Assembly (NCBI GenBank): GCA_945861435.1
Contig: CAMAUX010000034.1
Coordinates: forward strand, 1-54,364
From: Chthoniobacter flavus
Lineage (GTDB): Bacteria; Verrucomicrobiota; Verrucomicrobiia; Chthoniobacterales; Chthoniobacteraceae
Direction: 5' to 3'
Length of the DNA: 54,364 bases
Positions 18,424-45,884 of this stretch are shown piece after piece. A program made the position numbers and the translations under genes. Each line of letters starts with the position of its first letter. Position 1 is the stretch's first letter. Under the pieces are notes generated by a model. That model was given only the letters and a program-made list of their open reading frames with translations. It did not search any database and had not been told where the DNA came from.

Positions 18424-18737
18424 GGGAAGAGTATGGGTTCGAATGGGATGGCCGGAGGGTGCACAAATCACGCAGAGCGCGGGCATTTGGGCCACCTATT
18501 TCTTACATCCAAGGTCTTGGTGCGTACATTTTAGGACATTCACATGCTGGACCGCTTGTTTCTCGGGCTCATGTCTCGGGCTCATGTGTATAAAAAGCGG
18601 CAGCTTGTGGTCATTTATGTTCAAATAGGACAAATAATATCAATAGTTGTCTTAAATAGTTATAAAGGCGTATCTAATAGACTTGAAAGTGTATTTTTTG
18701 AGGTTAGGTTGGGTGAATCCGGGTGTTCCGGGGCCTC
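18424..18737. promoter_or_regulatory. AT-rich divergent control region of the Lrp-type gene and gltB
   Basis: The 314 bp hold no gene and are clearly more AT-rich than the surroundings. TAGGACA occurs at 18532-18538 and 18626-18632, each in an A/T context, and a related inverted box TTGTCTTA lies at 18647-18654. A 13-bp tandem repeat sits at 18561-18586. The boxes are candidate operators for the divergently encoded regulator. I could not settle -35/-10 elements; the stretch 18647-18680 (TTGTCT, then TATAAA and TCTAAT) is the likeliest gltB promoter zone. Confidence 0.45.
18561..18586 (+). repeat. 13-bp perfect tandem duplication
   Basis: TCTCGGGCTCATG occurs twice in immediate succession (18561-18573, 18574-18586). 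It lies between the two TAGGACA boxes upstream of gltB and changes their spacing, so it could affect regulation. Confidence 0.85.
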
Positions 18738-23387
<4,650 letters not shown>

Positions 23388-24278: not shown

Positions 24279-27200
24279 ATGAAGCACTCATTCGCACTTC
24301 TCGTCCTTTTGAGCGCGGCGGCGTCGGCCCAGCAGGCTGTCCCTCTGACAAAGGATGTTTTTGACTATGCCGCGCAAGATCGAGCGCCCGCGGGTACGAG
24401 GAGGATTGTGTTCATCGCGGCGGCAGGCACGCACGGGGGCGGCGGCAACCATGAGTTCCTTGCCGGCGGCACGTACATTGCACGCCGGATCAACGCGGAG
24501 TACGCGAATGCGCATGCCGTGGTGTATTCGGATAGGAAATGGCCGTCGGATCTTGGAAAGGCGGACGCGGTGGTGGTGCTGCTCAATCACGCGGGAAAGG
24601 CCGCGGAGGATGCGAACATCAAGGCTGCGGTGGAGCGGGGTGCGGGTTTTGGGGCGATCCACTTTGGGGTGGAGGTGAACAAGGGAACGCAGGGCGACAA
24701 TTTCCTGAGCTGGATGGGCGGTTACTTCGAGACGTTCTGGTCGGTGAATCCCACATGGGAGGCGGAGGTGAAGTTCATTGGAAACCATCCGGTGGCGCGC
24801 GGGGTCAAACCGTTCACGATCCGGGACGAGTGGTACTTCCACATGCGCTTTGCGCCGGAAATGCGGGGCGTGACGCCGATCCTCTCCGCGATCGCGCCGC
24901 TGAAGACGGTGAGTTTCAAGGAAGGCGGGGCCGCGAGCGCGCGTGGTGGGAATGCGGATGTGTTCAAGGCCGTGCAGGCGGGCGAACCGCAGCATCTTGC
25001 GTGGGCTTATGAGCGGCCGAACGGTGGCCGGGGGTTTGGGTTCACCGGATTTCACCTGTTCGCAAACATGGCGGATGACAGCTTCCGCACGACGATGCTG
25101 AACGGGGTGGCGTGGATCGCAGGCCTCGAGATTCCGGCATCTGGCGTGCCTTCGAACACGCCGACGAAGGAGGAACTCGCCGCGATGATGGAGGAGGCGC
25201 ATGGACCGGCGAAACCGTCCGTGCCTGCATTGCCCGTAGTGCCCGTGGATGCTGCGAATTCAGCGGGTGCAACGCCTGCAGTGGAGCGCTGGGCGCCGGT
25301 GTTTGAGAGCCCTGTGATGACGGGCGCTTCCACGCCGCGGATGCTCGAGGTGAACGCGCCACTCAAGGGCGCGAAGGAGTTGTATCTGGTGGTGTCGGAC
25401 GAGGGCTCCAAGAACTGTGACTGGGCGGACTGGCTGGAGCCGAAGTTGGTGATGGCCGATGGCAGCGAGCGCGATCTCACGAATCTGGAATGGAAGAGTG
25501 CGCAGTCCGGGTTTGGAAAAGTGCGTGTGGGCCAGAACACCTCGGGCGGAGCGTTGCAGGTGGAGAAGAAGCGTTATGACGCGGGCATCGGAACGCATGC
25601 GGCGTCGGTGATCGCATACGCACTTCCTTCAGGCGTGGAGCGGTTCACGGCCAAGGTCGCTTTGGATGACGGCGGGGCGGTGCGCAATGGGAAGACGAGC
25701 GAGGCTTCGGTGCGCTTCTCGGTCCACACGGCCGCACCGTCTCCTGCAGCGAAGGCGCGTGGCGGGAAGGGGCCTGCGAAGGAATTGCTGACGGAGGGGG
25801 CCACGTTCGCCGGGGTTGAAAGTTTCACGGTACCCGAGGGGTTGGAGGTGACTCTGTGGGCAACATCGCCGCTTCTCTTCAACCCGACGAACATGGACTT
25901 CGATGCGCAGGGCAGGCTCTACGTCACCGAGGGGGTGAACTACCGCAAAGTCGCCGGGCGCAGGCCGGAGGGCGATCGCGTGGTGGTGCTGGAGGACACG
26001 ACGGGATCTGGAAAAGCAGACAGGAGCACGGTTTTCGTCCAGGAGACCGGGCTGGAGTCGCCGCTGGGAGTGGCGGTGCTGGGGAACCGGGTCGTGGTGT
26101 CGCAGCCGCCGGATTTGCTGGTGTACACGGATGTGAATGGCGACGGGAAGTTCGAGCCGGGCGTGGATAGCCGGGAGGTGCTGCTGACGGGATTCAATGG
26201 AAGGCAGCACGATCACAGCCTGCACAGCGTGACCGTGGGGCCGGATGGTCTGTGGTACTTCAACCAGGGCAATACCGGCGCGCAGTTTGCGGACAAGTCG
26301 GGGAAGACTTTCCGGATGGGGAGTCCCTATGCGGCGTCGAAGACGGCGGTGGATGTGAACACCATTGCGGGGGTGAAGAGCGACGACGGCAACGTGTGGA
26401 TCGGTGGGTTCACCGTGCGGATGAAGCCGGATGGCAGTGCGGTGCGAATCATGGGTCACAATTACCGCAACAGCTACGAGCAGGCCGTGACGTCGTATGG
26501 CGATATTTTTCAAAGCGACAACGATGATCCGCCCGCGTGCCGGGTCACGCATGTGTTGGAGGGCGGTAATGCCGGGTTCGCATCCGCGGACGGCAAACGT
26601 GCATGGAAGGCGGACATGCGTCCGGGGCAGAACACGCCCATCGCGGAGTGGCGTCAGGAGGATCCCGGGACCATGCCGGCAGGGGACGTGTATGGAGGAG
26701 GATCGCCGACCGGTGTGGTTTTTTATGAGAACGGCGCGCTCGGGGAGAAGTGGAACGGTCTGCTGCTTGCGTGCGAAGCAGGAGGCAACGTGATCTTCGG
26801 ATACTTCCCTGTGCCCGATGGAGCGGGGTTCAAACTGGAGCGCTTCGACTTCCTGCGCTCGAGCATGCGGATGTTCCGCCCGAGCGACGTGTGCGTGGGG
26901 CCGGACGGTGCGCTCTATGTGGCGGACTGGTTTGATCCGGGCGTGGGCGGGCATGGGACGCGGGACGAGCGCTTCACTGGATCGATCTATCGCATTGCAC
27001 CCAAAGGGTTCCGATCGCCCGTGCCGAAGCTGGATTTTGCGACAACCGAGGGTCAGATCGCGGCGCTGAAAAGCCCGGCGGTGAATGTGAGGGAAGGTGG
27101 ATTTACGCAGCTTCGCGCGCAGGGGGCGAAGGCGGTGCCCGCGGTTGCGGCACTGCTCACGGATGCCAATCCGCATGTGGCGGCGCGCGCGGTGTGGTTG

Positions 27201-28334
27201 CTTGCGCAGATGGGGCCGGAGGGTCTCGCAAAGGTGACGCCTCTGCTGGACTCGCCCGAACCCGCAAAGCGGCTTGTGGCCTACCGTGCGCTGCGCGCGG
27301 TGGATCGCGACGTGCTGGCGATGGCGGCGAAGATGGCGGGGGACTCTTCGGCGGCGGTCCGGCGCGAGGTGGCGCTGACGCTGCGCGACATGCCGGCCGC
27401 GCAGAGCGTGGAACTGCTCGTGAAACTCGCGCGGCAGTTTGATGGAAAAGACCGCGCCTATCTGGAATCGATCGGGCTTGGCAGCACGCACAAGGAAGCG
27501 GAGGTGTATGCAGCGATCGCGCGGGAGATGGGCGGTGCGCCTGCAGCATGGAGCGATGCCTTTGCATGGATCGCGTGGAGGCTGCATCCCGCGGCTGCTG
27601 TGGAGGGATTCAAGGCGAGGATTTTATCCGATGCGCTCACTGTCCCGCAGCGCAAGCTGATGCTGACCGCGCTCGCGTTCGTGCCGACCCGCGAGGCGGC
27701 AGGAGCAATGCTTGAGGTCGCACACACAAAGGGCGCTCCCATGGCGGACCTTGCCCAGTGGTGGTTGATGAACCGCAAGGATAACGACTGGAAACCGCAC
27801 GGAGTGGAGGCCGCGATGAAGGCGCGAGGAATCTACGATCCAGACAACGTGAAGCTCGTGGCTGTGGAGATGCCTGCCCCGGCTCCCGATGCGCCGAAGC
27901 TTCCCTTGGTTGCGGAGATCGCCGCCCTCAAAGGCGATCCGAGCCGGGGACGCGCTGCGGTTGCAGTGTGTTATGCGTGCCACCGGATCGGGAAGGACGG
28001 CGTGGACTTCGGCCCGGATCTGAGCACGTACGCGAAGCAGCAGGCGCCTGCGGTGGTGGTGCAGGCGATCGCGGAGCCCAGTGCGAGCATCTCCCACGGG
28101 TTTGAGGGGAGTGAGGTGAAGACCACCGACGGGTTGACGATCACCGGGATGCTCCTGAGCGCGGGCGACCCGGTGATGATCAGGAGCATGGGCGGGCTTT
28201 TGCAGACGTTGCCAAAGGCGCGCGTTCAGTCCGTGCAGAAGATGAAGAAGTCGCTGATGTACGAGCCTTCGCAGTTGGGGCTGAACGCGCAGGGCATCGC
28301 CGACATCGTGGCGTATCTGAAGGGGATGGAGTGA
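24279..28334 (+). CDS. Exported ThuA / NPCBM-like / dehydrogenase propeller / HEAT / cytochrome c fusion
   Basis: 1351 aa from ATG 24279, where an 18-residue signal peptide begins (SFALLVLLSAAASAQ). Order of domains: ThuA-like (about 25-290; GTHGGGGNHEFLAGG, then FGAIHFGVEVNKG and HPVARGVKPF); NPCBM-like sandwich (about 350-500; SDEGSKNCDWADWLEP and GIGTHAASVIAYALP); PVC-type sugar-dehydrogenase propeller (about 530-905; FNPTNMDFDAQGRLYVTEG, VGPDGALYVADWFDP); HEAT repeats (about 910-1190); and a class I cytochrome c domain with CYACH (Cys1231, Cys1234, His1235) and DFGPDLSTYAKQ. The family is thought to oxidise sugars or other alcohols in the envelope, passing electrons through the heme. It converges on the large operon, ending 51 bp from its last gene. 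Confidence 0.85.
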   Translation: MKHSFALLVLLSAAASAQQAVPLTKDVFDYAAQDRAPAGTRRIVFIAAAGTHGGGGNHEFLAGGTYIARRINAEYANAHAVVYSDRKWPSDLGKADAVVVLLNHAGKAAEDANIKAAVERGAGFGAIHFGVEVNKGTQGDNFLSWMGGYFETFWSVNPTWEAEVKFIGNHPVARGVKPFTIRDEWYFHMRFAPEMRGVTPILSAIAPLKTVSFKEGGAASARGGNADVFKAVQAGEPQHLAWAYERPNGGRGFGFTGFHLFANMADDSFRTTMLNGVAWIAGLEIPASGVPSNTPTKEELAAMMEEAHGPAKPSVPALPVVPVDAANSAGATPAVERWAPVFESPVMTGASTPRMLEVNAPLKGAKELYLVVSDEGSKNCDWADWLEPKLVMADGSERDLTNLEWKSAQSGFGKVRVGQNTSGGALQVEKKRYDAGIGTHAASVIAYALPSGVERFTAKVALDDGGAVRNGKTSEASVRFSVHTAAPSPAAKARGGKGPAKELLTEGATFAGVESFTVPEGLEVTLWATSPLLFNPTNMDFDAQGRLYVTEGVNYRKVAGRRPEGDRVVVLEDTTGSGKADRSTVFVQETGLESPLGVAVLGNRVVVSQPPDLLVYTDVNGDGKFEPGVDSREVLLTGFNGRQHDHSLHSVTVGPDGLWYFNQGNTGAQFADKSGKTFRMGSPYAASKTAVDVNTIAGVKSDDGNVWIGGFTVRMKPDGSAVRIMGHNYRNSYEQAVTSYGDIFQSDNDDPPACRVTHVLEGGNAGFASADGKRAWKADMRPGQNTPIAEWRQEDPGTMPAGDVYGGGSPTGVVFYENGALGEKWNGLLLACEAGGNVIFGYFPVPDGAGFKLERFDFLRSSMRMFRPSDVCVGPDGALYVADWFDPGVGGHGTRDERFTGSIYRIAPKGFRSPVPKLDFATTEGQIAALKSPAVNVREGGFTQLRAQGAKAVPAVAALLTDANPHVAARAVWLLAQMGPEGLAKVTPLLDSPEPAKRLVAYRALRAVDRDVLAMAAKMAGDSSAAVRREVALTLRDMPAAQSVELLVKLARQFDGKDRAYLESIGLGSTHKEAEVYAAIAREMGGAPAAWSDAFAWIAWRLHPAAAVEGFKARILSDALTVPQRKLMLTALAFVPTREAAGAMLEVAHTKGAPMADLAQWWLMNRKDNDWKPHGVEAAMKARGIYDPDNVKLVAVEMPAPAPDAPKLPLVAEIAALKGDPSRGRAAVAVCYACHRIGKDGVDFGPDLSTYAKQQAPAVVVQAIAEPSASISHGFEGSEVKTTDGLTITGMLLSAGDPVMIRSMGGLLQTLPKARVQSVQKMKKSLMYEPSQLGLNAQGIADIVAYLKGME

Positions 28335-28385
28335 GGGAGCTTTTGCAGCCTGAACCGCACGCTGGCGCCGCCGGGTTCCGGCCGG

Positions 28386-31271
28386 TCAATCCCGGGCGCC
28401 CGGCTTTGGCGCGCCTGTCTCGCGTACATTGCGGAAAGGATATGCCTTCACGACTTCGAGGATGATCCGGCCCAGCCTGTAGCCGTCCTGTGAAGTGGCT
28501 TCCTGAATGGCATGGACGGCCGGCATGTCATAGATCGCCAGCTCGCGTCCCAGTGCGTAGCTGAGGAGATGTTCGATGAAGCCGCGCGTGAACTCGCCGG
28601 GATTCTTCATGAGAGCAGCCTTGTAACCCGCGGGGCCATCGAAGGGATGGCCGTTCCATTCGGAGTGCGCGTCGACGGGTGTGCCTCCGTCGGTGTCGCG
28701 CCAGGCGCCGATGGCGTCGAAGGGCTCGAGAGCGAAGCCCGGCGGGTCGAGACGGATATGGCAGGAGTAGCACGCAGCCTTGTTGCGGTGGGCTTCGAAG
28801 CGCTGGCGGATGCTCATCGCCTGGGCGGCTTCCTTGGTGTCGTTCTCCACGGCGAAGGCGACCTTGGGTTCGGATGGCGGGCGGTTGAAGAGTGTCTCGA
28901 GCAGCCATGCGCCGCGCTTCACAGGCGAAGTGCGGAAGGGGAGCGACGTGATGGTGAGCGGCGCGGCCATCGTGAGAAAACCACCGCGCGATTTGTCGGC
29001 GAGCGGCACGCGGCGCCAGACGTTGCTGGGGTCTTTATCGTTGGATTTGAGTTCGCGGTTCGGCTGCCCCGCGACTGCGACTGCGGCCGCGGTGTCGGTT
29101 GCGGCTGCGTTGAGGTCGATGCCGTAGAGTTTGGCGAGGCGCGGGTTGAGCCATGTGTAGTTCGCATCCACGAAGTCGAGGATGCTGCGGTCCTCGACGA
29201 GCACGGTCTCAAAGAGGAGCAGCGCCTCGAGCAGCATCGGGCCGTGGAGCGTGTTCTTGCCTTGAGGGCCCGAGTAGAAGGTTTTGAAAAGCTGCGCGTC
29301 CGGTTTTGAGGTGTAGAGCTGGTCGAGTCGCAGCCATTGGGTTGCGAAGGATTCACTCAGTTCGCGTGCGCGTGGATCCCGGAGCATCCGGCGCGTCTGT
29401 GCTTCAAGGACGGTGTCGTCGTGGAGTTTTCCAGCACGCGCGACGGTGAGCAGCTCCTCGTCCGGTGCGGAGGCCCAGAGGAAATAGCTGAGGCGGGAGG
29501 CGAGTTCGAAGTCATCAAGCACTCGCACCTGTCCGCCCTTGGAGCGGGACGGTTCCGCGAGGAAGAGAAACCCCGGTGAAGACAGTACCGCCTGCACGGC
29601 GATCCGCATCGCGTCCGCCTCGGACTTTCGGGAATTTCGTTCCGCATCAAACAGCGTTTGGAATCGCGTGCGCTCCTCTGCTGTTGCGGTACGGCGGAAG
29701 GCGCGGTCGATCAACGCAGCGAGCCGATCAGCAGGTGGGAGCGTGGTGCGGACAGTCTTGTCGGCGGGGTTCTTTGCTGGCGCCGCCTTCGTCGGGGGCG
29801 ATGGCGCGTGCGTCACGGCGGGCGGGGGTGTGGTGATTGGAAGCGCCCTTCCCGTGGTGATGAAGCCCAGGTCGTCGATCAGCACATAATCGCCGCTGAA
29901 CTTGCTCCCATCGATGATGAGTGACTTCACGTGCTCGCCCGGCACGGCGGCGAAGCTGAAGAACGTGGTGCCCGCAGGGCCCTCGGCGATGGACGCGGTG
30001 AGCTTTGTTTCCGTGTCGTCGCTGAAGCGCGCTGTGAGGGACACCTCGCCGGACTCACGCTTGCGGCCGAGGACACACACGGCGAGTCGCGCGATGGCTT
30101 CGTCCGGGTCTCCATTCTCGATTTTGAAAGTCAGCTCAAACCTCTTCGCGCCCTTCGTCTGGTTGCAAAACAGCTTTTTTCCCGAAGTCGCATCCGCGGT
30201 CGCGAACGCGGCGAGCCATAGGTCCTCGTTCGGATTTACGGTGAGCGCCTTCGCGCCCGCGTTGCCGAAGCGGACGCGTAATAACGCGCCCTTGCCGGGA
30301 AGCACCGGCGCGCCAGGCAAGGCATCAGCACCATCGAACACACCCCCACGGCCTTCGTGAAAGGCTCCTGCCACCTCTTCGCGAAAGCGGGACTCGACAT
30401 TGTCCGCGCTGCCGTCGGCCCTGCGCAATGCCGATGCGTTCGGGGCAAACACGCCGGCCGCCACGCATTCGACATCGCCCTTCTGTGCTGCGGCCTTCGT
30501 GTTCCCCGATACGGTTTGCGTTGTGAAATCCACTCCGAGCAGTTCCGCGAACACACGGCTGCGTTGAGGCAGATCGGGGTGACTCACGATGCTGCCCGCA
30601 AGCGCGACGTACTGTTCGAGCAGCAGGGGGGATAGATTCATCGCGTCGCCCCGGTTGCGAAAACCGTGTTCGGCACGGTTGTCTCCGGGCAACCCTGCGC
30701 CCGGCAGGAGCGCGGGCATTTTGCCGCCAAACTCGATGAGCTGCACATTCACCTTTTCACCCATTTGGTCTGAAGCGGGTTGGAAGTAGTCCTTTCCCTT
30801 GAGCGGCTGTCGTTCGGGGAACAGGAACACGTCGGTGTCGAGTCCGAGCAAATCGCGCACGGTGTTGTTGTATTCGAGGCGCGTGAGCCGGCGCAGGACG
30901 GGTTTGCCGGGATCGCGCACGCCGAGTGCGGGATCGGGTCGGGCGGCGAGGTTGGCGATCCATGCGAGGACCATGGAGCGTTCGGCAGCGTTGGGCTGCG
31001 ACTCGCGTTTGGGTGGCGGCATTTGGTGTGTCTCGACCTTGTCGAACACGCCGCGCCAGATTCCGCGGTCGGCCATCACGTCGCTGTCGGATTGAAACCG
31101 CTCCAGATTGATTCCACCCTTGGGCGCGGGCTCATCGCCATGGCAGTGGAAGCAGTGCGTCTCGAGCACCGGACGGATGTCGTGCAAGAAGTCGACGCCA
31201 TGGGACTGGTGGACGGCGAGGGCGACCGATGCGAGGCGGAGTGCCAGCAGTTTCATGCGGGTCGCGGTCAT
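28386..31271 (-). CDS. DUF1592-type exported cytochrome (second copy, last gene of the operon)
   Basis: 961 aa. ATG 31271 was chosen because it overlaps the SGNH gene stop as ATGA; ATG 31256 is an alternative. Residues 6-25 form a signal peptide. A CxxCH site follows at Cys40-His44 (HCFHCHGDE). LRRLTRLEYNNTVRDLLGL (about 140) is the DUF1587 signature. Later come DUF1595/DUF1592 (ELASRLSYFLWASAPDEE), DUF1588 (TSLPFRTSPVKRG), a second CxxCH at Cys834-His838 (ACYSCHIRLDPPG) and DUF1585 at the end (LLSYALGREL). A Pro/Ala-rich linker lies near 500. The family is predicted to be a c-type cytochrome of the PVC envelope; its reaction is not established. Confidence 0.85.
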   Translation of the reverse strand: MTATRMKLLALRLASVALAVHQSHGVDFLHDIRPVLETHCFHCHGDEPAPKGGINLERFQSDSDVMADRGIWRGVFDKVETHQMPPPKRESQPNAAERSMVLAWIANLAARPDPALGVRDPGKPVLRRLTRLEYNNTVRDLLGLDTDVFLFPERQPLKGKDYFQPASDQMGEKVNVQLIEFGGKMPALLPGAGLPGDNRAEHGFRNRGDAMNLSPLLLEQYVALAGSIVSHPDLPQRSRVFAELLGVDFTTQTVSGNTKAAAQKGDVECVAAGVFAPNASALRRADGSADNVESRFREEVAGAFHEGRGGVFDGADALPGAPVLPGKGALLRVRFGNAGAKALTVNPNEDLWLAAFATADATSGKKLFCNQTKGAKRFELTFKIENGDPDEAIARLAVCVLGRKRESGEVSLTARFSDDTETKLTASIAEGPAGTTFFSFAAVPGEHVKSLIIDGSKFSGDYVLIDDLGFITTGRALPITTPPPAVTHAPSPPTKAAPAKNPADKTVRTTLPPADRLAALIDRAFRRTATAEERTRFQTLFDAERNSRKSEADAMRIAVQAVLSSPGFLFLAEPSRSKGGQVRVLDDFELASRLSYFLWASAPDEELLTVARAGKLHDDTVLEAQTRRMLRDPRARELSESFATQWLRLDQLYTSKPDAQLFKTFYSGPQGKNTLHGPMLLEALLLFETVLVEDRSILDFVDANYTWLNPRLAKLYGIDLNAAATDTAAAVAVAGQPNRELKSNDKDPSNVWRRVPLADKSRGGFLTMAAPLTITSLPFRTSPVKRGAWLLETLFNRPPSEPKVAFAVENDTKEAAQAMSIRQRFEAHRNKAACYSCHIRLDPPGFALEPFDAIGAWRDTDGGTPVDAHSEWNGHPFDGPAGYKAALMKNPGEFTRGFIEHLLSYALGRELAIYDMPAVHAIQEATSQDGYRLGRIILEVVKAYPFRNVRETGAPKPGARD

Positions 31272-32212
31272 TTGCGTGCGGTCTGAAGTTTGGCGCTGAC
31301 CTCCCTTGTCATCTCCCATGCGACGCCCTCGAGGTATCGAGCTGTCTCATCGCTCAGCGTGGCGGTGAGGTTCATCGACATGTTCTTGAACATCCACCTC
31401 GGCATCTTCGCCTGATACGCGTCCGGCTTGAACGCAGCGATGCGCTCTGTCTCCGCAGCCTTCTCCGCGTCGGTCGCAGCCCTCGGGAAAGCGTGTGGCC
31501 ACACAGGATACGTACGCGGGAGTTTGCCGATGGGCGACTCACCCGTGAGCGCGGCGTAGAAGCACGCGAGATTCAAAAAGTGGCCGGTGTCTCCGGGATG
31601 CGCGTTGTCTTTGGGATCTTGCAGTGCGAGCTCGGGGCGTTCGCGCATCACGCAGTCCCAAGCCGATGAACACGGCGCGTAGAGACGGATCTTGTTTTTC
31701 ACAGCGAGCTGAAAAATGCGCGAGCGTCCCTCGGACTCACGGTCGGATTTTCCCCAGCCCATCTCGTAGAAAACCGGTTCGCCCCCAGCGGCGCGGACGG
31801 CCTCGCAGTATTGTGTAATAGCGCCCGCGTGCGCGTTGCCGGTGCCGGTCGGGTCGTCATCGCCCATGATGAAACGGCAGACCGTTTGCAGCACGACGAA
31901 AGGCGGCTTCTCCTCGCGGATTCTGTCGAGGAACGACTGTCCCGGCTTTGCGCCATATTCGTATTTGTTGAAGCCCGGCTCGAGATACACGCGGATGTCG
32001 TTCCCGCTGCGGCCGATGATTTCTGGAACCACGTGTGCGTCGAGGTGTCCGCTGAATCTCCGGTCCACGACCTTTGCCACTTCGCGCGGAAAATCGTTCC
32101 AGTAGGTGCTGCTACTTCCGGCGAAAAGCAGGCGCACGTCCTCCGCTCGCCCGGCGAGCGTGGCACCGAGGAGGAAGACAAGAATAAGCGGACGGACGGT
32201 GGTGGATTTCAT
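31268..32212 (-). CDS. Exported SGNH-like hydrolase
   Basis: 314 aa from ATG 32212, which overlaps the preceding gene's stop (ATGA). The signal peptide is residues 1-23 (LILVFLLGATLAGRA). The mature protein starts VRLLFAGSSSTYWNDFP, a block I-like GxS nucleophile region, followed by RSGNDIR and, near residue 210, DNAHPGDTGHFLNLACFYAAL, a block V-like Asp/His pair. This order suggests a GDSL/SGNH esterase or deacetylase acting outside the cytoplasm, perhaps on acyl groups of a glycan. Blocks II and III are not clear to me. Its stop overlaps the start of the downstream cytochrome. Confidence 0.72.
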   Translation of the reverse strand: MKSTTVRPLILVFLLGATLAGRAEDVRLLFAGSSSTYWNDFPREVAKVVDRRFSGHLDAHVVPEIIGRSGNDIRVYLEPGFNKYEYGAKPGQSFLDRIREEKPPFVVLQTVCRFIMGDDDPTGTGNAHAGAITQYCEAVRAAGGEPVFYEMGWGKSDRESEGRSRIFQLAVKNKIRLYAPCSSAWDCVMRERPELALQDPKDNAHPGDTGHFLNLACFYAALTGESPIGKLPRTYPVWPHAFPRAATDAEKAAETERIAAFKPDAYQAKMPRWMFKNMSMNLTATLSDETARYLEGVAWEMTREVSAKLQTARK

Positions 32213-33477
32213 TTCGCTGATTGGATGATGAACTCGAGGAACTGCCCCCAATCTCCGGGGCTGAGTGGCGACTGGCCGTGATGCGCTTGGTCGGAGACAA
32301 GCAACGAGAGTGCGCGCAACGCCTCGGCGGATTTTGTCTCGCGGAGAAATGCCTCATCATTCGCAAACGTCCGGTGGACGAGTAGGAGCGCCTCCATTGC
32401 GTGGTCCTTGTTCATCACGCCGCGGGTCACCATCTCCGCGTTGCGCGCCGCAAGGCCGAGCGAGAGCGAGTGCAGCACCTCCGCGCGGTGTGCGTGAGAA
32501 GGCGGCATCACGGCGGCGAGCTGCGCGAGCGCACACATCATGATGTAGTGGTACGCGGGCCGCGCGTTGTGCGCGTCCATCCAGCGGCCGGCGCGCGGGC
32601 CGTCGGTGAGTTGGCCGGGGAGGACGCCGAGACGCGCCTTTTGCACGGCGGCGTCGAGGTACTTGGCGTCGTTGGTCGCGGTGAAGGCGCGTGCGAGGAG
32701 ACGCACGCTGAAGCTGTTGTAGTTCCAGTTTGTGCAAAGCGGTCGTGCGAGCGCCCAGTCGGCTGCGCTCCGAGCGGAGTCGAGATGGCGGGTCTCCTTG
32801 GTCAGGTCGTGCAGGTCGAACATCGCCACGCCGCACTCGCCGTTGTCGAATTGCATTCCACCTTCGCCGAGGTCGTCGAACGCCCAGCCGTTGCGCACGA
32901 CGGTGTGGAGCGTGCCTGCCTTCTCCGCCTTTTCCAGAAACCGCGTGGCGACTTGCATCGCCCGGGCCTTGGAGGTGCCGCGCGCGGCTGGGAACGGATA
33001 GCACCCCGCGCCGGCCTGCTCCTGCGCCCAGATGAGAAAATCCGCGGCGTCCTTCGCCATCGAGAGACTGCGCTCCGCGCCATCGAGCTTTGCACGCGCC
33101 GCAGAGACATTTCCGGCAATGACTGAGCCGACGCCTCGCAGCGGTGCGGTGAGCTTCGTCGGGTCCACCCCTACATTCCACCAGCGCAGTTTTTCGAGCT
33201 GAGCGAAGTGGGGAGTTAATCCGAGCTGCGCCTTCTCCCGTGTGAGGAGTCTGGCGTCCCTTGGCACGGGTCGGAACTCATCGGCGACCTCGGGATTGCC
33301 CGCCTTGTCGCCGAGATGCGCGCGCGCTTCAGCGACCGTGGCTCTGATGGCTGCGAGGTCGTTTGCTTCCATCGCTCTCGTCAGGGCTTCGGCAAGGGAG
33401 TTCTTTCTCTCGTCCGCGCGCGAACAGTCGGTGAGCGAGAGCAAGATGCCGGCGAAGAGCGAAAACGTGAATCTCAT
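32209..33477 (-). CDS. Exported alpha/alpha-toroid-like protein of unknown function
   Basis: 422 aa from ATG 33477; ATG 33498 (seven residues longer) is possible. A signal peptide covers about residues 1-20 (FTFSLFAGILLSL). The rest is helical and Trp/Asp-rich, with segments such as SMAKDAADFLIWAQEQAGAG, YPFPAARGTSKARAM, LGEGGMQFDNGECG, YNSFSVRLLARAF and WGQFLEFIIQ. This resembles (alpha/alpha)6-barrel lyases and glycosidases, but I recognise no specific family or catalytic set. Its stop overlaps the SGNH gene start. In context it is probably a polysaccharide-processing or -binding partner. Confidence 0.65.
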   Translation of the reverse strand: MRFTFSLFAGILLSLTDCSRADERKNSLAEALTRAMEANDLAAIRATVAEARAHLGDKAGNPEVADEFRPVPRDARLLTREKAQLGLTPHFAQLEKLRWWNVGVDPTKLTAPLRGVGSVIAGNVSAARAKLDGAERSLSMAKDAADFLIWAQEQAGAGCYPFPAARGTSKARAMQVATRFLEKAEKAGTLHTVVRNGWAFDDLGEGGMQFDNGECGVAMFDLHDLTKETRHLDSARSAADWALARPLCTNWNYNSFSVRLLARAFTATNDAKYLDAAVQKARLGVLPGQLTDGPRAGRWMDAHNARPAYHYIMMCALAQLAAVMPPSHAHRAEVLHSLSLGLAARNAEMVTRGVMNKDHAMEALLLVHRTFANDEAFLRETKSAEALRALSLLVSDQAHHGQSPLSPGDWGQFLEFIIQSAK

Positions 33478-33505
33478 GCGGGAGCTGCCTAGATCCATGC
33501 GGGAT

Positions 33506-34480
33506 TCATTTGGCATCTGCGCGCACCACTTTGTTGATTCCGTTCGGGGTGAGCGGGGGTGATTGCCGCCACGTTTTTCCATCGGCAGAGAATGCCATCT
33601 TGCCGGGCCAACTCGACGTGATGAAGCGCGTGCCATCGGTCCACATCGGCTTGCCCTGTGCCTTGAAATCGCACGCCTCCCACGTAGTGCCGTCGGCGGA
33701 TGCGAGAGCCGTCTTGCCGCCGCCGCAGAGGAACTCTTTTCCCGTCCACAAAATCCAGTCGAGCTTGTCGCCCGCGCGCTCTTCCTTCGCCCACTCCTTG
33801 CCGTTGCGGGAAGTGACGATCACGCCATCGCCGACGGCAACAAAGACACCGTCCCCAAATGCGAGCGAGCGCAGTTGCGGGAGATCCTTGCGGAAGCTGG
33901 CGTCGGTGCCGTCCTTCGACGCAATGCACCAGTAGAACTCCTTCTTCGCGCCGCCCTCGCCCATGAAAACGAAGGTGCCGTTGCCATACGCGCCGTTGCG
34001 GAACCACATCGCCCATCCGGGAAATCCATCTGCCGCAACTTGAGCGCCCTTCGTCCACTTCTCGCCGTCGTCGGAGAACAGCAGCGTGCGTTCAGGCCCG
34101 CCCGCGACGAATCGATTGCCGCTGAACACCACAGGATTCACGCGGAACGGCTCGCTATGGACCTCTTTCCATTCCCGTCCGTCCTTGGACACGAGGATAT
34201 GACCGCCCTGTTGATCCTTCGAGAATCCCCCGCCGCCGACCGCGACGAATTTGCCGAGGCCATACGCAAGTCCCATCAAGTTGTTGGAATCATCGCCGCC
34301 TTTCTCTGCCCATTCCGCGGTGATTTCCCATTGCACGCCATCGTGCGAGATCATCCGCCGCCCGCCGTAGCCGACCGCTACCCAACTGTCCGCCGCGTCG
34401 CAGAGTGAGGTGCCGCAAAGGATGGAGAGCAGCGCAAAGGCGATGCGTGGAATGATGAAGTGATGTTCTCGTGATCTCAT
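33506..34480 (-). CDS. Exported beta-propeller with BNR/sialidase-like blades
   Basis: 324 aa. The signal peptide is at residues 1-29 (IAFALLSILCGTSLCDA). About six repeats share the pattern FVAVG...S-DG--W: ISHDGVQWEI, VSKDGREWKEV, FSDDGEKWTKG, ASKDGTDASF, TSRNGKEWAKE, ASADGTTWEAC and FSADGKTWRQS. These Asp-box-like turns define a BNR/photosystem-stability-factor-type propeller. No catalytic residues of true sialidases are evident, so a binding role is likely. It lies 33 bp after the TIM-barrel gene and 28 bp before the toroid gene. In sampled lines its coding strand is more G-rich than its neighbours'. Confidence 0.72.
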   Translation of the reverse strand: MRSREHHFIIPRIAFALLSILCGTSLCDAADSWVAVGYGGRRMISHDGVQWEITAEWAEKGGDDSNNLMGLAYGLGKFVAVGGGGFSKDQQGGHILVSKDGREWKEVHSEPFRVNPVVFSGNRFVAGGPERTLLFSDDGEKWTKGAQVAADGFPGWAMWFRNGAYGNGTFVFMGEGGAKKEFYWCIASKDGTDASFRKDLPQLRSLAFGDGVFVAVGDGVIVTSRNGKEWAKEERAGDKLDWILWTGKEFLCGGGKTALASADGTTWEACDFKAQGKPMWTDGTRFITSSWPGKMAFSADGKTWRQSPPLTPNGINKVVRADAK

Positions 34481-34513
34481 GAGGAGGAATGGTGTGGTCG
34501 TTTTTCTAGACGG

Positions 34514-36034
34514 TTAGGCTTTACGGAGTTCCTGCAATGCCGCGCCGATGGCCTTCAGATTCTCCACGCGCATTTCGTCGTATTCGCGCGAGATGAGGAT
34601 GCCGCTGGCACCGGCGTCGAAGGCTTTCACCACGGCAGCTCGCAGTGTTTCCGGGCGGCTCAGGAACGGTTTTTCCTTTGGGCCATCCGGCTGCCCTGCG
34701 TGGATGTTGTTCGGCACGTCCACTCCGATGCCTGGGATAACGGCGCATGTGCCCTGCACCCTATCCACAATGCGCTTGGTCTCGATGCCGACATAATCGG
34801 CGCTCATGCCGCGGTGATTCAGTTCCTCGAGCCTAGGCTCCACCTTCGGGTCGTAGCCCCTCATTGCATAAAACATCTCAAGCGACTGTTGCAGCGACAG
34901 TTCTGCCAATGGTCCCTTTTTCAGTTCCTCCAGATGATACGCGAGCAGGCGCGGCGCCAGGATGTCGTGATAAAGGATCGGCTTGATGAAGTCCGTGTAA
35001 GGCGCGAGATCGGCGTAGCTCCACTGCGCGAGAAAGAGCGCGTCCCACGAAGTGTTCCTGTGGTCGAGGTGACGGCCCACGCTCGTCTGCGGGCGCGCGC
35101 TCTTGACCAGCGCGTGCGTGCGTCGGCCCTGTTCCTCCAGTGCGAGACGCCACTGGTAGTCCCATGCGAGAATCTCGGGAAACTTCATCATCACTCGGAG
35201 GACGTTGGTGAACACGCCGTCCGCGGGAGCGTTGGCGCCGGCGCGCAGCTTGGTGATCAAGGCGCTGAGTTCCGTGAATCCTTCGCGTGCACGCCCGCTG
35301 TGAATGCCTTCGCGTTTTGCTCGAGCTTCGCAGTGGGGACAAAAACAAAAGGGCACCGTGCCATTCCAAAGGACGCTGGAGAGGGGACCGGTGCGCTCCG
35401 CGCCCCATTGATAACCATCGAGCGGATAAGAACGAACGGTGTCCGCTACGAGCGCGTCCCAGAACCCCATCCATTCGGGATTGTTGCGGCACGGTTGGCC
35501 GGAGATTTTTCCGTCGAGGCCCACGGACATTGCGCGCTCGGAGTTTGGCACGCGGTCGCGGAGCTCTTTGGTTCCGGGCTCAAGGAGGCGGGCGTAAAAT
35601 CGGAGGCCGCGTTTCTTGCAGGCCTCAGCGGCTTCGGCGAACACATCGCGGTTACCGTATTCCTCGTCTGCCGAGGGCCTCGGGATGCGCAACGAGGTGT
35701 TGGCGAATGCCGAGTCGTGATGTCGCAGCCAGACCCGAGTGATGTTGCGCTGACGCTCATCTCTGATGGGGACGCCGTGATCAGCGTAGACCTCTGGCGG
35801 GCGCTTGTGTGCGGCGTAGTAGCTGTGGCTGTAGAGGAAGATCGCGTTGGCGTGGCAGGTCGACTGGACGAGGTCCAGGCAGCGCTCCATGCCTTCGTCG
35901 AGGAGGCTGTGTCCGGCGATCTGTATGCCGATGAGCGGTGAGCTTGCCACCGGGGAATCGACTGCGCGAAGGCATTGCGCGGAGAGCGCGAGGGATGCGG
36001 TGGTTGCCTGCTTGATGAAAGTGCGGCGGTTCAC
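34514..36034 (-). CDS. Tat-exported TIM-barrel-like protein (putative glycosyl-hydrolase-like)
   Basis: 506 aa. The N-terminus is a twin-arginine signal: NRRTFIKQATTASLALSAQ, so it is probably exported folded. Segments such as IGIQIAGHSLLDEGME, NAIFLYSHSYYAA, RGLRFYARLLEPG, DGYQWGAERTGPL, FCFCPHCEARAKREG, AYTD-like AYHLEELKKG and GASGILISREYDEM look like strands and loops of a beta/alpha barrel. The CFCPHC pair recurs in putative glycosidase families of PVC bacteria. No confirmed acid/base pair can be assigned. It is 88 bp after the hydrolase gene and likely acts in the periplasm on the operon's substrate. Confidence 0.68.
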   Translation of the reverse strand: MNRRTFIKQATTASLALSAQCLRAVDSPVASSPLIGIQIAGHSLLDEGMERCLDLVQSTCHANAIFLYSHSYYAAHKRPPEVYADHGVPIRDERQRNITRVWLRHHDSAFANTSLRIPRPSADEEYGNRDVFAEAAEACKKRGLRFYARLLEPGTKELRDRVPNSERAMSVGLDGKISGQPCRNNPEWMGFWDALVADTVRSYPLDGYQWGAERTGPLSSVLWNGTVPFCFCPHCEARAKREGIHSGRAREGFTELSALITKLRAGANAPADGVFTNVLRVMMKFPEILAWDYQWRLALEEQGRRTHALVKSARPQTSVGRHLDHRNTSWDALFLAQWSYADLAPYTDFIKPILYHDILAPRLLAYHLEELKKGPLAELSLQQSLEMFYAMRGYDPKVEPRLEELNHRGMSADYVGIETKRIVDRVQGTCAVIPGIGVDVPNNIHAGQPDGPKEKPFLSRPETLRAAVVKAFDAGASGILISREYDEMRVENLKAIGAALQELRKA

Positions 36035-36122
36035 GGCGTGTGGTGGAATGGGGATTTACCGTTGGCCGAAAGCCCACAGGGGTTCGGCGTCTGTGCGAGA
36101 GTGTAGGCGGGGGCCGAAGAGT

Positions 36123-38168
36123 TCATGGATCCTTCGCGGGTTTCGGCTGCCAGGTTTCATCGAAGAAACCGGCGTGGATGACAGCACCCGGCGCCTCGCC
36201 GTCAGCGGGTGTGTCGAGGTTGATGAGTGCAAAGTCGGGGAGTTTCGGGGTGGTGAGGGCGCTGGTGCCGAGGTGGGACTCCCGTTGCGTGACGCCAGAA
36301 TTGAGGACGAGGTAGCGATTCGGATTGAGAGGGTTTGGGTAGATGAGGATGGGGGCGTGAGTCGCGGGATCGGTGTTCTTTGTGGAGAGCGTGAGTTGCG
36401 CAGCGGTCCAGATGAGCGGGAGCTTCGGGAGTGCGCGTGCGATGAGGGCATTGCTCTGCGGGTCGCCCCAAAGGATGAGGTTGCAGGTGGCGATGTCCGT
36501 GTCGGTGACGTCGCGGTCGTCCTTGATGAGGACTTCGCCACGGTAGAGTTTGCGCCACATCTTTTGCGCGTGCTCGAGTTCGGCGGCGGCCCATGCGCCG
36601 ACCCGCTCGTTCAGCGGCTTGCCGGTTGGGCGCACGAAGAGGAAGCGCTCCATGAATGCGTCGTCCACGGGGCCTGTGAGTCCGTGGACTTTGTGCAGGC
36701 CTTCGCTCGGTGGTGAGCCGAGTCCCCATATTTCGGTTGGGGAACGGGTCTTGCCGTTCTCCTTCGGCCATGACTTCGAGTTCTTGTGAACGCTCACGCG
36801 CCACAGATCAGCTGCGGCCGGCACATCGAGATACTGGCCGTCGATGCTCAGGCGCACGGGTTTATTTTTCGCGAGCGGAAGGTCGGTGCCCGCGCTGTTC
36901 AGCGTGAATGCGGTGACGTTCGCGGTGTTGATGCGGATGAAATCCGGCGATTCGATGAGTGCGTGGATGTCGGCGCGTTCCCAGTGTTCATCGAGCCTGT
37001 CAAAGCGCACCCACTCGCAGTGGTCGTAGCGCAGGCCGTAGGTCGAGTAGCGCACTACATTGGGCGATTGCCGACGGCCCGCGGCGACGATGGGGCGCAT
37101 CCATGCCTCGATCTCAGCGCGCGCGGTCTTTTCGTAATTGTGGCCGGTATTCAGACCGAGCACGCGGCGCAACGGCACTCCATCGCGCGCGCAGGCGGCG
37201 GCCATGGCGTCGTGCGAAAAACGATGGCCGTCCTTTTCGCCGACGTAGCTGAACGTCGGCACCATCGCGATGTTCCCCGCCACATCGGTGGCGTTGTAGT
37301 AATGGAAGAGCGTGAACTGCCACGACGGCGGTTGTTTTTCCCATTCCCAGATTTTCACGAAGTGCTCTGTGTCGGCGAAGCCGGCGCCTGGCGATGCCGC
37401 GACCCAGCGGTCGGGATGATGGGCTGCGAGATGCCACGAGCACGAACCGCCCATTGAAAAGCCGTGCAGCACGATGCGTTGGTTATCCACCGGATACTGG
37501 GACTGCGCGTGCGCGAGCTGTTCGAAGAGGTTCACCTCGCCTGCAAATTTTGCCCCGTTGTAGCCGCGCGCGTAGGCGCGGACGTGGAGCGACTCCTCAT
37601 CGGCGAAGCCGTTGCCCTCATGCAGACCGGCGTGGATGACAGCGAGCTCGGTCACGAGCCCCGCGTGCGGACACTCGATGAAAAGCGGATACGGCTGGCG
37701 CCCGGTTTGCGCCTCGGCATGGGGGCCGCGCCACGAGGCGGGCACATGGATGACGTAGGGCTGCACGCTGTCGTCGAGCCCCGAGCGGAAGCCCCGGATG
37801 ACCTTGCCCGTCTGTGTCAGCCACGGAGCGCGGCCTTGCTGCAGTTGCTGCGCCCGCTCGAGCCCCACTTTCAGGACCTCGCGTGCGGCGCCGTAAAACT
37901 TCGCATCCATCGCCCCATCGAAGTTCAGGCCCCAATCGAGTGCCTTCACGCACACCCGTACGTCCGGCAGCAAGGCAATGAGGTCGGCCCTGCCTGCGAC
38001 GGACTTCTCCGCCGCGCCGGTCTCAATCCGCAACTGCGCGAGGCCAGCAACCAGTGCGTCCTTTTCCTCGTCGGAGATTTTGCCCGCCTTTTTCGCGTCC
38101 TGCGCGAATGCGGACGAAATTGTGACGAGCAGAATGAGGTAGAGGCGGAGTGTGTTCAGTGCACTCAT
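36123..38168 (-). CDS. Exported alpha/beta hydrolase (prolyl-oligopeptidase-like)
   Basis: 681 aa from ATG 38168, overlapping the DUF1552 stop as ATGA. A signal peptide spans residues 1-22 (LYLILLVTISSAFA). A helical N-terminal part (about 25-125) precedes a catalytic domain with the nucleophile elbow LHGFSMGGSCSW (Ser238), then HHPDRWVAASPGAG and GHNYEK (possible catalytic His). The C-terminal third has LSIDGQYLDVPA and, near 575-600, CNLILWGDPQSN, a common feature of two-part S9-like hydrolases of PVC bacteria. It may be an esterase or peptidase; within this operon, ester removal from a polysaccharide is plausible but unproven. Confidence 0.8.
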   Translation of the reverse strand: MSALNTLRLYLILLVTISSAFAQDAKKAGKISDEEKDALVAGLAQLRIETGAAEKSVAGRADLIALLPDVRVCVKALDWGLNFDGAMDAKFYGAAREVLKVGLERAQQLQQGRAPWLTQTGKVIRGFRSGLDDSVQPYVIHVPASWRGPHAEAQTGRQPYPLFIECPHAGLVTELAVIHAGLHEGNGFADEESLHVRAYARGYNGAKFAGEVNLFEQLAHAQSQYPVDNQRIVLHGFSMGGSCSWHLAAHHPDRWVAASPGAGFADTEHFVKIWEWEKQPPSWQFTLFHYYNATDVAGNIAMVPTFSYVGEKDGHRFSHDAMAAACARDGVPLRRVLGLNTGHNYEKTARAEIEAWMRPIVAAGRRQSPNVVRYSTYGLRYDHCEWVRFDRLDEHWERADIHALIESPDFIRINTANVTAFTLNSAGTDLPLAKNKPVRLSIDGQYLDVPAAADLWRVSVHKNSKSWPKENGKTRSPTEIWGLGSPPSEGLHKVHGLTGPVDDAFMERFLFVRPTGKPLNERVGAWAAAELEHAQKMWRKLYRGEVLIKDDRDVTDTDIATCNLILWGDPQSNALIARALPKLPLIWTAAQLTLSTKNTDPATHAPILIYPNPLNPNRYLVLNSGVTQRESHLGTSALTTPKLPDFALINLDTPADGEAPGAVIHAGFFDETWQPKPAKDP

Positions 38169-39499
38169 GCGAGCCCCGGCAGCGCCTCCACGCTGTCGCC
38201 GAATTGTTTGAGTTTCACGCCCATGCATTGCGCGATTGCGAGGTAGAGATTGCAGGCGCGTTGGTGCTCTTCGGGCTTGGAGCTGGTGTCGATGACTTTG
38301 CCGCCGGCGATGGCGCCGCCGCCGTGGCCTGCGAGGATCATTGGGAGATTGCGGCCATCGTGGCTGTCGCCGTTGAACATGTTGCTTCCGAATTGGAGGA
38401 TCACATTGTCGAGAAGGGTGGTGCCGTTGCCTTCGTCCACCTGCTTCATCTGCGCCATGAGGTAGGCGAGTTGCTCGACGTGGAATTGGTTGATGCGCTG
38501 ATACGAGGCGAGCTTCCTCGAGTCTTCCTTGTGGTGGGAAATGCCGTGGAGTTGGTCGTTCAGCACGCCGTCAAGAAAGCCGAACTTCATGTGCGACACG
38601 TCGCGGTTGAAGATGAGGGTGGCGACGCGGGTTTTGTCCATGCGCCAGGCGAGGAGGATGAGGTCGAGCATCATGCGCATGTGCGCGCGCACGTCCTGTG
38701 GGAGCTCGGCGGCGGGGCGCTCCATGTCCGGCTTGGCCAGAGTGGGACGCCAGCCTTCGAGCCGCTCCTCTTTGGTTGCGCGCTCGATGCGTTGTTCGAG
38801 GTCGCGCACGCTGGTCATGAACTCATCGAGCTTCTGCTGATCCTGCGTGCCGAGGATGCGGCGCGTGTCGTTCGACTGTGCGAGCACGGCGTCGAGCACG
38901 CTTTTGTCGCGGAGCAGTCCGCTGGTGTCGAAGAGCCGGTCGAACACCGCGCGCGGATACACCTCGGGCGCGATGGGTGTGTTTTTGGACGACCACGAAA
39001 CGGTGCCGTAATACACGCTCGGAACGCCGCTGCGCAGGCCGCTCTCCGCTGGCTCCACTGCAAGCACGAGACTCGGCACCGGCGTCTCCCTGCCCGTATG
39101 CCGAGCGATGACCTGGTCAATGGACTCGCCGCCCTCCGGAATCAGCGTCTCCCTGAATTGCGCGCCGCTGAGGTAATTCGAGAACAGCGGCCAGTGGGGG
39201 CCGCTGGTGTTGTTGAAGACGTGCAATTCGCGCAGGACCGTGATGTCGCGTTTGAACGGCGCGAGCGGTTGCAGGGTTTTCGAGAGCTCCATGGACTCGC
39301 CTCCGCCCTTCGCGGACCATTCGTATGGGTTCACTCCGTTGGCGAAAAGCATTGCGCCGTAACGGATGGGAGCTCGCGCGCTCTCGGCAGCTTTGCCGCC
39401 TTGTGCCCATGCGAGCGAGGGCAGCCACGGAAGCGTCAGCGTGGCACCGGCTCCGCGGAGAAAGGCGCGGCGTGAGAGGGGTGGGGTGGGGGATGTCAT
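38165..39499 (-). CDS. DUF1552 family protein, Tat-exported (copy 2)
   Basis: 444 aa. The twin-arginine signal is SRRAFLRGAGATLTLPWLPS. The family core follows: PIRYGAMLFANGVNP, LQPLAPFKRDITVLREL, GPHWPLFSNYLSG, a long helical segment around QQKLDEFMTSVRDLEQRIER, HMRMMLDLILLAWRMDKTRV, and FGSNMFNGDSHDGRNLPMIL near the end. DUF1552 proteins are a PVC/myxobacterial family distantly related to the DUF1501/sulfatase-like alkaline phosphatase fold, and usually lie beside DUF1592 cytochromes. Its ATG overlaps the upstream cytochrome stop and its stop overlaps the hydrolase start, so all three are coupled. Its biochemical function is unknown. Confidence 0.85.
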   Translation of the reverse strand: MTSPTPPLSRRAFLRGAGATLTLPWLPSLAWAQGGKAAESARAPIRYGAMLFANGVNPYEWSAKGGGESMELSKTLQPLAPFKRDITVLRELHVFNNTSGPHWPLFSNYLSGAQFRETLIPEGGESIDQVIARHTGRETPVPSLVLAVEPAESGLRSGVPSVYYGTVSWSSKNTPIAPEVYPRAVFDRLFDTSGLLRDKSVLDAVLAQSNDTRRILGTQDQQKLDEFMTSVRDLEQRIERATKEERLEGWRPTLAKPDMERPAAELPQDVRAHMRMMLDLILLAWRMDKTRVATLIFNRDVSHMKFGFLDGVLNDQLHGISHHKEDSRKLASYQRINQFHVEQLAYLMAQMKQVDEGNGTTLLDNVILQFGSNMFNGDSHDGRNLPMILAGHGGGAIAGGKVIDTSSKPEEHQRACNLYLAIAQCMGVKLKQFGDSVEALPGLA

Positions 39500-42726: not shown

Positions 42727-42727
42727 T

Positions 42728-45348: not shown

Positions 45349-45884
45349 GAGCGGGCTTCCTGCGCCATGGAGCGCTCGATGCACAGCAGCAGCGCGTGCC
45401 GGATGCGGCGGAGCATTTCGGAAAGCGCCTTCGGTGTCGTTCCGCGCGCCACCGCTATTTCATTCACTGAGCCGCCTGGTTCGTAACGCTGCGCGACGAG
45501 CGCGCGCTGTTCCGTGTCGAGTTTTTGCAGGCAGCCTGCAAGCGCCACGCGGCGCGCATCTGCTTCGGCCACCTCCGCGATGGCCTCCTTGGCGACGAGT
45601 GCGAGCAATTCATCATCGAACGAGACCCGGGCCCGCTGCCGCCTTTTCAAATGAGCGAGCGACTGCAACTGCGCCACACGCATCGCCCACGGCAGGAACT
45701 CGCGTGCCGTGTCAAACTCCGCCGACTTGCGCCAGAGGACGATGTTGGTCTCCTGAAGCACGTCATCGGCGTCTGCTGCGTGGCGGACCATGGAGACGAT
45801 GAATGCATGCAGCGTGCGCTGTGCGCGGGTCACCAGCGTGATGAACTCGGCCGAAGGCGGCAGGGGTGATGAAGACGGGGGCAT
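45345..45884 (-). CDS. ECF-like sigma-70 family RNA polymerase sigma factor
   Basis: 179 aa. Region 2 (about 20-85) has AFIVSMVRHAADADDVLQET, NIVLWRKSAEFD and FLPWAMRVAQLQSLAHLKRR, the pattern of the Rhodopirellula/Verrucomicrobium ECF group. Region 4 (about 115-170) has LQKLDTEQRALVAQRY and VNEIAVARGTTPKALSEMLRRI, a helix-turn-helix. It is the first gene of the apparent 17.5-kb operon and overlaps the FecR-like gene by 4 nt. It likely directs transcription of its own operon when released from FecR control. A GGGAACCC box, similar to ECF -35 elements, lies 45 bp upstream. Confidence 0.88.
   Translation of the reverse strand: MPPSSSPLPPSAEFITLVTRAQRTLHAFIVSMVRHAADADDVLQETNIVLWRKSAEFDTAREFLPWAMRVAQLQSLAHLKRRQRARVSFDDELLALVAKEAIAEVAEADARRVALAGCLQKLDTEQRALVAQRYEPGGSVNEIAVARGTTPKALSEMLRRIRHALLLCIERSMAQEARS

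Follow-up and report, generated by a model that had tools for sequence, protein, structure and literature searches.

What would a bacterium do with a single, probably exported polypeptide that joins a ThuA domain, a carbohydrate-binding module, a dehydrogenase-like propeller, HEAT repeats, and a c-type heme? The question is raised by a gene encoding a 1351-residue protein on contig CAMAUX010000034.1 of Chthoniobacter flavus (assembly GCA_945861435.1); the window, meaning the whole stretch of DNA that we analyzed, is 54,364 nucleotides long. The protein is a well-formed member of a large, known, and poorly characterized family of the Verrucomicrobia and Planctomycetes, and it most probably oxidizes a bound glycoside and releases the electrons through the fused heme. 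More specifically, and with a probability that we put at roughly 0.5, we propose a secreted, probably periplasmic carbohydrate oxidase that delivers electrons to its own heme and whose ThuA domain acts on the oxidized sugar.

Redox carriers, domains, and folds

The main argument for a redox enzyme comes from the paralogues of the protein in its own genome (5.35 Mb in 105 contigs, 96% complete). The NCBIfam model TIGR02604 ("PVC-type heme-binding CxxCH protein", PVC standing for Planctomycetes, Verrucomicrobia, and Chlamydiae) gave 69 matches in this genome, which group by reading frame into 31 genes above the cut-off. Among these 31, the heme domain TIGR02603 is above its cut-off in 21 and below it in one more, and three carry a cupredoxin (contigs C1, C2, and C29). 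By coordinates, the carrier lies C-terminal to the propeller in 25 of the 25 carrier-bearing paralogues. A one-electron carrier has been retained while the type of carrier changed, and we therefore favor a redox enzyme. This pattern, heme in most paralogues and cupredoxin in three, also supports the coupling of carbohydrate binding to oxidation that an earlier reading of the letters of this DNA (the original prediction) had put forward. The cupredoxin paralogue on contig C29 (L147 351-4475) has ThuA, GDSL esterase, DUF7133, and cupredoxin domains in one 1375-residue frame by Pfam; its cupredoxin scores 25.9 bits in the Pfam scan, short of the cut-off (27), and 33 bits together with its frame neighbors in a second scan. 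In total, the genome holds 30 TIGR02603 matches over the cut-off, 14 ThuA matches, and 35 DUF1552 matches.

The five-domain composition that had been read from the sequence was recovered by Pfam and NCBIfam, with every match above its curated cut-off (scores in bits, cut-offs in parentheses): ThuA (PF06283) 53.0 (33.4), NPCBM (PF08305) 86.8 (23.9), TIGR02604 466.8 (122.2), DUF7133 195.3 (27) overlying the TIGR02604 stretch, HEAT_2 (PF13646) 39.1 (27.7), Cytochrom_C 24.3 (21.3), and TIGR02603 123.0 (68.15). The ThuA domain is matched by both hidden Markov models and structure modeling, and the dehydrogenase-type propeller by the fold model. The core model, from propeller to heme (852 residues, 54 sequences), has a predicted local distance difference test score of 90.9 and a predicted template modeling score of 0.86, and the ThuA–NPCBM model (18 sequences) has scores of 79.9 and 0.60. 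The predicted folds agree with the profile calls for the ThuA domain, the propeller, and the heme domain; the structural matches span mainly residues 17-457 of the core model and 7-272 of the N-terminal model, and barely cover the HEAT and NPCBM folds. The structures that best match the propeller are 3a9g (Z 31.4 over 305 residues, root-mean-square deviation 2.7), 2ism (29.9), and 3das (29.0), followed by 7cgz (28.9), 7cdy (28.6), and 2g8s (27.6), which are sugar dehydrogenases of the pyrroloquinoline quinone (PQQ) type. The claim of a dehydrogenase-type propeller is thus supported by a fold model that ranks sugar dehydrogenases first (Z 27.6-31.4), ahead of fungal AA12 proteins (Z ∼26) and of Drp35, lactonases, and diisopropyl fluorophosphatases (DFPases; ∼24). 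For the ThuA part, the top matches 4e5v, 4jqs, 4pxy, and 1t0b are all ThuA-like (Z 16.0-18.2), and the nearest structure to the heme domain is the Kuenenia diheme cytochrome Kustd1711. A sequence search of the PDB with the propeller alone returned only matches of NHL-type repeats and the like.

By profile alignment, the NPCBM module is circularly permuted, with both halves present and their order reversed: residues 341-390 correspond to profile positions 88-136 and residues 400-483 to positions 5-82 (of 137). Aligning the profile of the A3 members with the CBM51 structures 2vmh and 7js4 gave the same swapped order. The swap was checked directly for the window protein and the A3 profile, and all 18 of the 18 A3 members have an NPCBM match that aligns across the module. 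The permuted NPCBM/CBM51-like module, taken as window 25236-25778, is an observation in its own right.

Because long homologues align with it end to end, we take the gene to be real and rule out a chance reading frame. Eight such homologues were aligned, six at 58-76% identity (one of them the paralogue on contig C14 of the same genome) and two at 36-38%. The N-terminus reads MKHSFALLVLLSAAASA up to the cleavage point placed by eye, and continues with QQ, which suggests that the protein is probably secreted, with a periplasmic location likely.

Table 1. Window coordinates of the gene, its domains, its candidate functional residues, and its convergent neighbor.
Feature	Position	Strand	Basis
Whole gene	24279..28334	+	1351 residues, ATG to TGA (stop included); long homologues 36-76% identical
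Probable general secretory (Sec) signal peptide	24279..24329	+	Residues 1-17, cut after ASA; translation judged by eye
ThuA domain	24396..25193	+	Residues ∼40-305; PF06283 matched residues 90-280
NPCBM/CBM51-like module, circularly permuted	25296..25733	+	Residues 340-485
TIGR02604/DUF7133 propeller	25806..27014	+	Residues 510-912
HEAT-repeat spacer	27021..27788	+	Residues ∼915-1170; PF13646; successive helices modeled over core residues 424-667
TIGR02603 heme domain	27933..28325	+	Residues 1219-1349
His646, putative counterpart of the catalytic His in PQQ sugar dehydrogenases	26214..26216	+	Invariant, n = 54
Arg730-Asn731, putative counterpart of the RN pair in PQQ sugar dehydrogenases	26466..26471	+	Invariant, n = 54
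CYACH heme-binding motif, Cys1231-His1235	27969..27983	+	C, C, and H invariant, n = 54
Met1327, likely distal heme ligand	28257..28259	+	Invariant, n = 54; aligns with Kustd1711 Met292
Convergent neighbor, PSCyt1/PSD, DUF1592 family	28386..31319	-	Pfam; outside the system

Candidate active site and competing functions

Seven residues, His646, Arg730, Asn731, Cys1231, Cys1234, His1235, and Met1327, are invariant in all 54 sequences of the core alignment (residue numbers are core-alignment numbers plus 499). Most of these sequences come from Verrucomicrobiota; Bacteroidota contribute some, and Planctomycetota and Lentisphaerota a single one each. In known PQQ dehydrogenases, a His is catalytic and an Arg-Asn pair contacts PQQ. 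Through a GSDH protein encoded beside one relative's copy (L043), His646 aligns with the His of an HNGG motif and Arg730-Asn731 with the RN pair of the aldose dehydrogenases; because the profile scores are weak, this equivalence to the aldose dehydrogenase pocket is suggestive only. The heme domain shares its Cys, His, and Met positions with Kustd1711 (7zs0), which differs in being small, in holding two hemes, and in having no propeller. Met292 of Kustd1711, the residue altered in 7zs1 and 7zs2, is aligned to Met1327.

In the mechanism that we propose, the substrate, the cofactor, the order of the steps, and the chemistry of the ThuA domain are what we infer. The NPCBM module would bind a glycan or glycoside, and the propeller, resembling that of PQQ-type aldose dehydrogenases, would oxidize a sugar hydroxyl. 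Electrons would then pass to the C-terminal His/Met-ligated c-type heme, held by the HEAT solenoid, and from there to the respiratory chain, while the ThuA domain would act on the resulting oxidized (keto) sugar. No partnership with the convergent operon would be required.

Several observations weigh against this carbohydrate oxidase. Soluble glucose dehydrogenase (1qbi) reached a Z of only 23.4, no higher than the lactonases and DFPases. The PQQ-type aldose dehydrogenases 3a9g, 2ism, 3das, and 2g8s share the propeller fold and may share the His and Arg-Asn positions, but they are 16-22% identical to the window protein, which differs from them in its fused heme. The profile alignment with the dehydrogenases scores poorly, with an hhalign probability of 1.2 for one sequence and of 66 for a forced global alignment with two sequences; the window protein has no match to Pfam GSDH (PF07995) at an expect value of 0.01, and one homologue (L054) has a match below the cut-off. 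PqqC was not found in this 96% complete genome, and PqqE matched only far below its cut-off. The PqqC model does match elsewhere in the phylum: among 240 sampled genomes (the same 240 by handle for both models), PqqC is over its cut-off in five and TIGR02604 in 19, this genome included, with an overlap of zero. All five PqqC genomes bear one family code; four have a weak TIGR02604 match only and one has none. With no PqqC found in the genome, the cofactor would be scavenged PQQ or something else. Furthermore, no heme or cupredoxin was found in six of the 31 TIGR02604 paralogues. Finally, the link between ThuA and keto sugars derives from rhizobial trehalose work, and our literature search did not turn it up.

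A further point against oxidation is the only assay of a TIGR02604 protein that our literature searches found. In the excerpted account of Cheng et al. 2017 (PMC5342196), purified Lac161_ORF7, a TIGR02604-HEAT-TIGR02603 homologue assigned to Chthoniobacter and described without ThuA or NPCBM, freed glucose from lactose with a Michaelis constant (Km) of 1.8 mM and an activity maximum at pH 6.0 and 50 °C; the authors suggested that it represents a novel family of beta-galactosidases. In one planctomycete, Ivanova et al. 2017 (PMC5352709, likewise as excerpted) counted 18 homologues. Both reports favor a propeller that is a glycoside hydrolase of the beta-galactosidase type, with the heme serving for anchoring, signaling, or the like. 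We regard such a hydrolase as unlikely, since the fold is nearest to dehydrogenases and the exchange between heme and cupredoxin points to redox chemistry. The assay itself leaves room for another source of the activity. The strain BL21(DE3)pLysS is lacZ-positive, and an optimum of pH 6 and 50 °C is unlike that of LacZ. Lac161_ORF7 was expressed in E. coli BL21(DE3)pLysS with isopropyl β-D-thiogalactopyranoside, and the excerpt of PMC5342196 remarks that its Km is similar to the LacZ value (2.0); LacZ carried over from the induced host may thus have contributed, although the optima of pH and temperature argue otherwise.

A way to reconcile the dehydrogenase fold with the release of glucose from lactose would be oxidation-assisted cleavage, in which the propeller oxidizes the glycoside and the keto-glycoside is split by ThuA or by elimination, replacing a classical hydrolase. 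There is a precedent in PMC9007349, where, in the part available, lactose is converted to 3'-ketolactose and hydrolysis is proposed to be performed by other proteins (LacABC with DUF1080), and the repeated joining of ThuA to the propeller (see below) fits the same scheme. The keto product is still hypothetical, no ThuA domain is described for Lac161_ORF7, and the chemistry of ThuA is unproven, and so we judge this route decidedly unlikely. The propeller could instead be a non-catalytic scaffold or sensor that binds glycans. The hedgehog-interacting protein, whose propeller is a binding protein and no enzyme, belongs to the same superfamily, as seen in the sequence matches of the GSDH intermediate L043, and the failure to find PqqC in the genome points the same way. 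A scaffold is improbable in our view: the candidate pocket residues do not vary across 54 sequences that represent several phyla, and a heme or cupredoxin domain is present in 25 of the 31 paralogues. Returning to the carbohydrate oxidase, one chain unites a binding module, a propeller resembling those of dehydrogenases, a redox carrier, and ThuA, so that a single protein could serve to distinguish sugar oxidation from hydrolysis. A bolder extension, which we consider rather unlikely, is that these proteins are self-contained oxidative glycoside-cleaving machines of PVC bacteria: they would oxidize the bound sugar without PQQ of the cell's own making, discharge electrons through fused heme or cupredoxin, and process the keto-sugar with a fused or co-translated ThuA, and the reported "hydrolysis" of lactose would be oxidation-assisted cleavage. 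If so, the family, with ∼30 copies here, would be an alternative to glycoside hydrolases.

Relatives and the history of the ThuA domain

The closest known system is the group of PVC-type CxxCH proteins (TIGR02604 plus TIGR02603), with which the window protein shares the order propeller, HEAT, heme, both models being far over their cut-offs; it differs from them by the N-terminal ThuA domain and the permuted NPCBM module, an addition also seen in a minority of the family. Lac161_ORF7 (GenBank AGW45552; cited also in the excerpt of PMC7823827), from the Verrucomicrobia as well, shares TIGR02604, HEAT_2, and TIGR02603, a likeness drawn from its domain description only, which includes neither the ThuA nor the NPCBM of the window protein. 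The ThuA-like proteins 4e5v, 4jqs, 4pxy, and 1t0b share fold and Pfam family with the window ThuA, which differs in being fused and is 15-16% identical to them; the entry titles of these structures give no function, and the available part of PMC7229062 offers a structural comparison with ThuA-like proteins. Our literature searches found no paper on a ThuA-propeller-heme fusion. For its lineage the protein is unremarkable, yet it belongs to a poorly understood family with 31 genes over the cut-off in one genome.

A search for relatives gave matches in 32 of 57 genomes, and a contig scan supplied database loci, of which we used the best 80 loci of 571 relatives. Architectures were labeled with our own domain models, built from nine sequences and leaving HEAT outside, on 102 distinct core sequences from the database loci and the other relatives. 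Of these rows, 20 are ThuA-NPCBM-propeller-heme, six the same without heme in frame, one ThuA-propeller-heme, 24 NPCBM-propeller-heme, 48 propeller-heme, and three propeller only. The five-domain architecture thus recurs in other Verrucomicrobiota and in Planctomycetota and is not unusual for the lineage. As separate observations, two Pirellulaceae records (L129 7696-12357 and L134 1272-6743) have the heme domain in a separate frame directly after ThuA-NPCBM-propeller, which in L129 is the same reading frame after a single stop. In L058 4426-8949, L059 5926-10584, and L074 12867-17444, a co-directional frame of ∼1500 residues with weak matches to the propeller model follows the five-domain gene. 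Genes similar to one another lie near three relatives' copies (L043 5176-6969; L048 11691-13628 and 14398-15981; L057 2221-3813), the one in L043 being a sulfatase by Pfam.

ThuA has joined the propeller core more than once. In this genome, ThuA and propeller share a frame in six proteins, accounting for six of the 14 ThuA matches; five are over the TIGR02604 cut-off and one is below it (contig C5, 1389-residue frame). ThuA is N-terminal in these, except in the contig C10 protein (L146 2-4798), and it is because ThuA sits at the C-terminus there that we conclude on repeated joining, with better support than the tree gives for a domain swap. On a quick core tree, the ThuA label requires at least 16 changes, nine of them forced by starred branches, and broken draft frames contribute to the count. 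A Lentisphaerales locus (L118 2552-6060) has separate genes for ThuA and for propeller-heme, overlapping at ATGA and without NPCBM. In the relative G021, a ThuA that is 65% identical to that of the window is a separate gene on another contig, and the G021 core has no ThuA.

Against four beta-type relatives, the window protein is 37-43% identical in ThuA and 77-79% in the propeller, while against three distant relatives the values are 43-48% and 40-45%. The tree places two ThuA clades apart, the group having been named after the tree was viewed, and the approximately unbiased test does not reject a single ThuA clade (p 0.10 with 51 rows; 0.126 after removal of five long-branched or short rows). 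A swap of ThuA domains between near-identical cores is likely but unproven from these comparisons, and fast evolution of ThuA remains a live alternative.

The convergent operon and gene boundaries

The original prediction had also made the gene a functional partner of the operon at 28.4-45.9 kb, which converges on it (window 28386-45884, minus strand) and encodes an extracytoplasmic function (ECF) sigma factor, FecR, two DUF1552 proteins, two PSCyt/PSD proteins, and an S9-type esterase; four frames at 31268-36034 have no Pfam match. Like the window protein, PSCyt/PSD are PVC cytochrome proteins, some of them with NPCBM (He et al. 2017, PMC5615132, as excerpted), but they have different domains and are the adjacent operon genes, not the window protein; the same excerpt states that nothing is known about the function of PSCyt genes. 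Synteny and background-level proximity led us to reject the partnership as a specific link. Homologues of DUF1552 or PSD were found in none of 19 loci of relatives, and an ECF sigma factor occurs in one; the set includes the paralogue L047 of the same genome, a ThuA gene standing alone (L045), and two contigs shorter than 6 kb. Among the database loci, three of 80 have them (DUF1552 in L100 and L134; PSD in L060 and L100), in views of at most 9 kb on each side, many ended by contig ends, with masked-base frames left out, so that L084, L113, L116, and L121 show no domains. In the genome itself, the start of a TIGR02604 gene lies no more than 15 kb from a DUF1552 gene in eight of 31 cases, among them the gene studied here, where 5.5 are expected (95% range 2-10); distances are undercounted in an assembly of 105 contigs. 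Ten genes at or near seven relatives' copies have no common theme (MBOAT, protease-NHL, sulfatase, GSDH-cytochrome, DUF1501, HD, outer-membrane efflux, ATP-binding cassette transporter, DsbD, and PIN).

Some evidence runs counter to this rejection. The families are adjacent, close, and co-directional where they meet in L060, L100, and L134; on contig C50 of the same genome, a DUF1552 gene immediately precedes a co-directional TIGR02604 gene; and a DUF1501 gene lies next door in one relative (L044). A dedicated partner of the ECF sigma/FecR/DUF1552/PSD operon would fit the 51-bp distance, the cytochrome domains that PSCyt-PSD proteins also bear, and those co-directional adjacencies, but with opposite strands here, proximity at background level, and no such genes found in the 19 relatives' loci or in 77 of the 80 database loci, many of them cut by contig ends, we consider it highly improbable. 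A loose pathway link between the TIGR02604 and DUF1552/PSD families is possible.

The end of the gene had been placed at 28385. The convergent arrangement and the 51 bp to the neighbor, whose stop codon is at 28386, hold, whereas the reading frame itself ends at 28334 and position 28385 takes in the spacer. The stretch 28250-28500 yielded neither a terminator-like nor a sigma-70-like site. Elsewhere in the window, a 1412-residue open frame at 18975-23213 on the minus strand lies antisense to glutamate synthase (18723-23387, plus strand) and is probably a by-product of codon composition.

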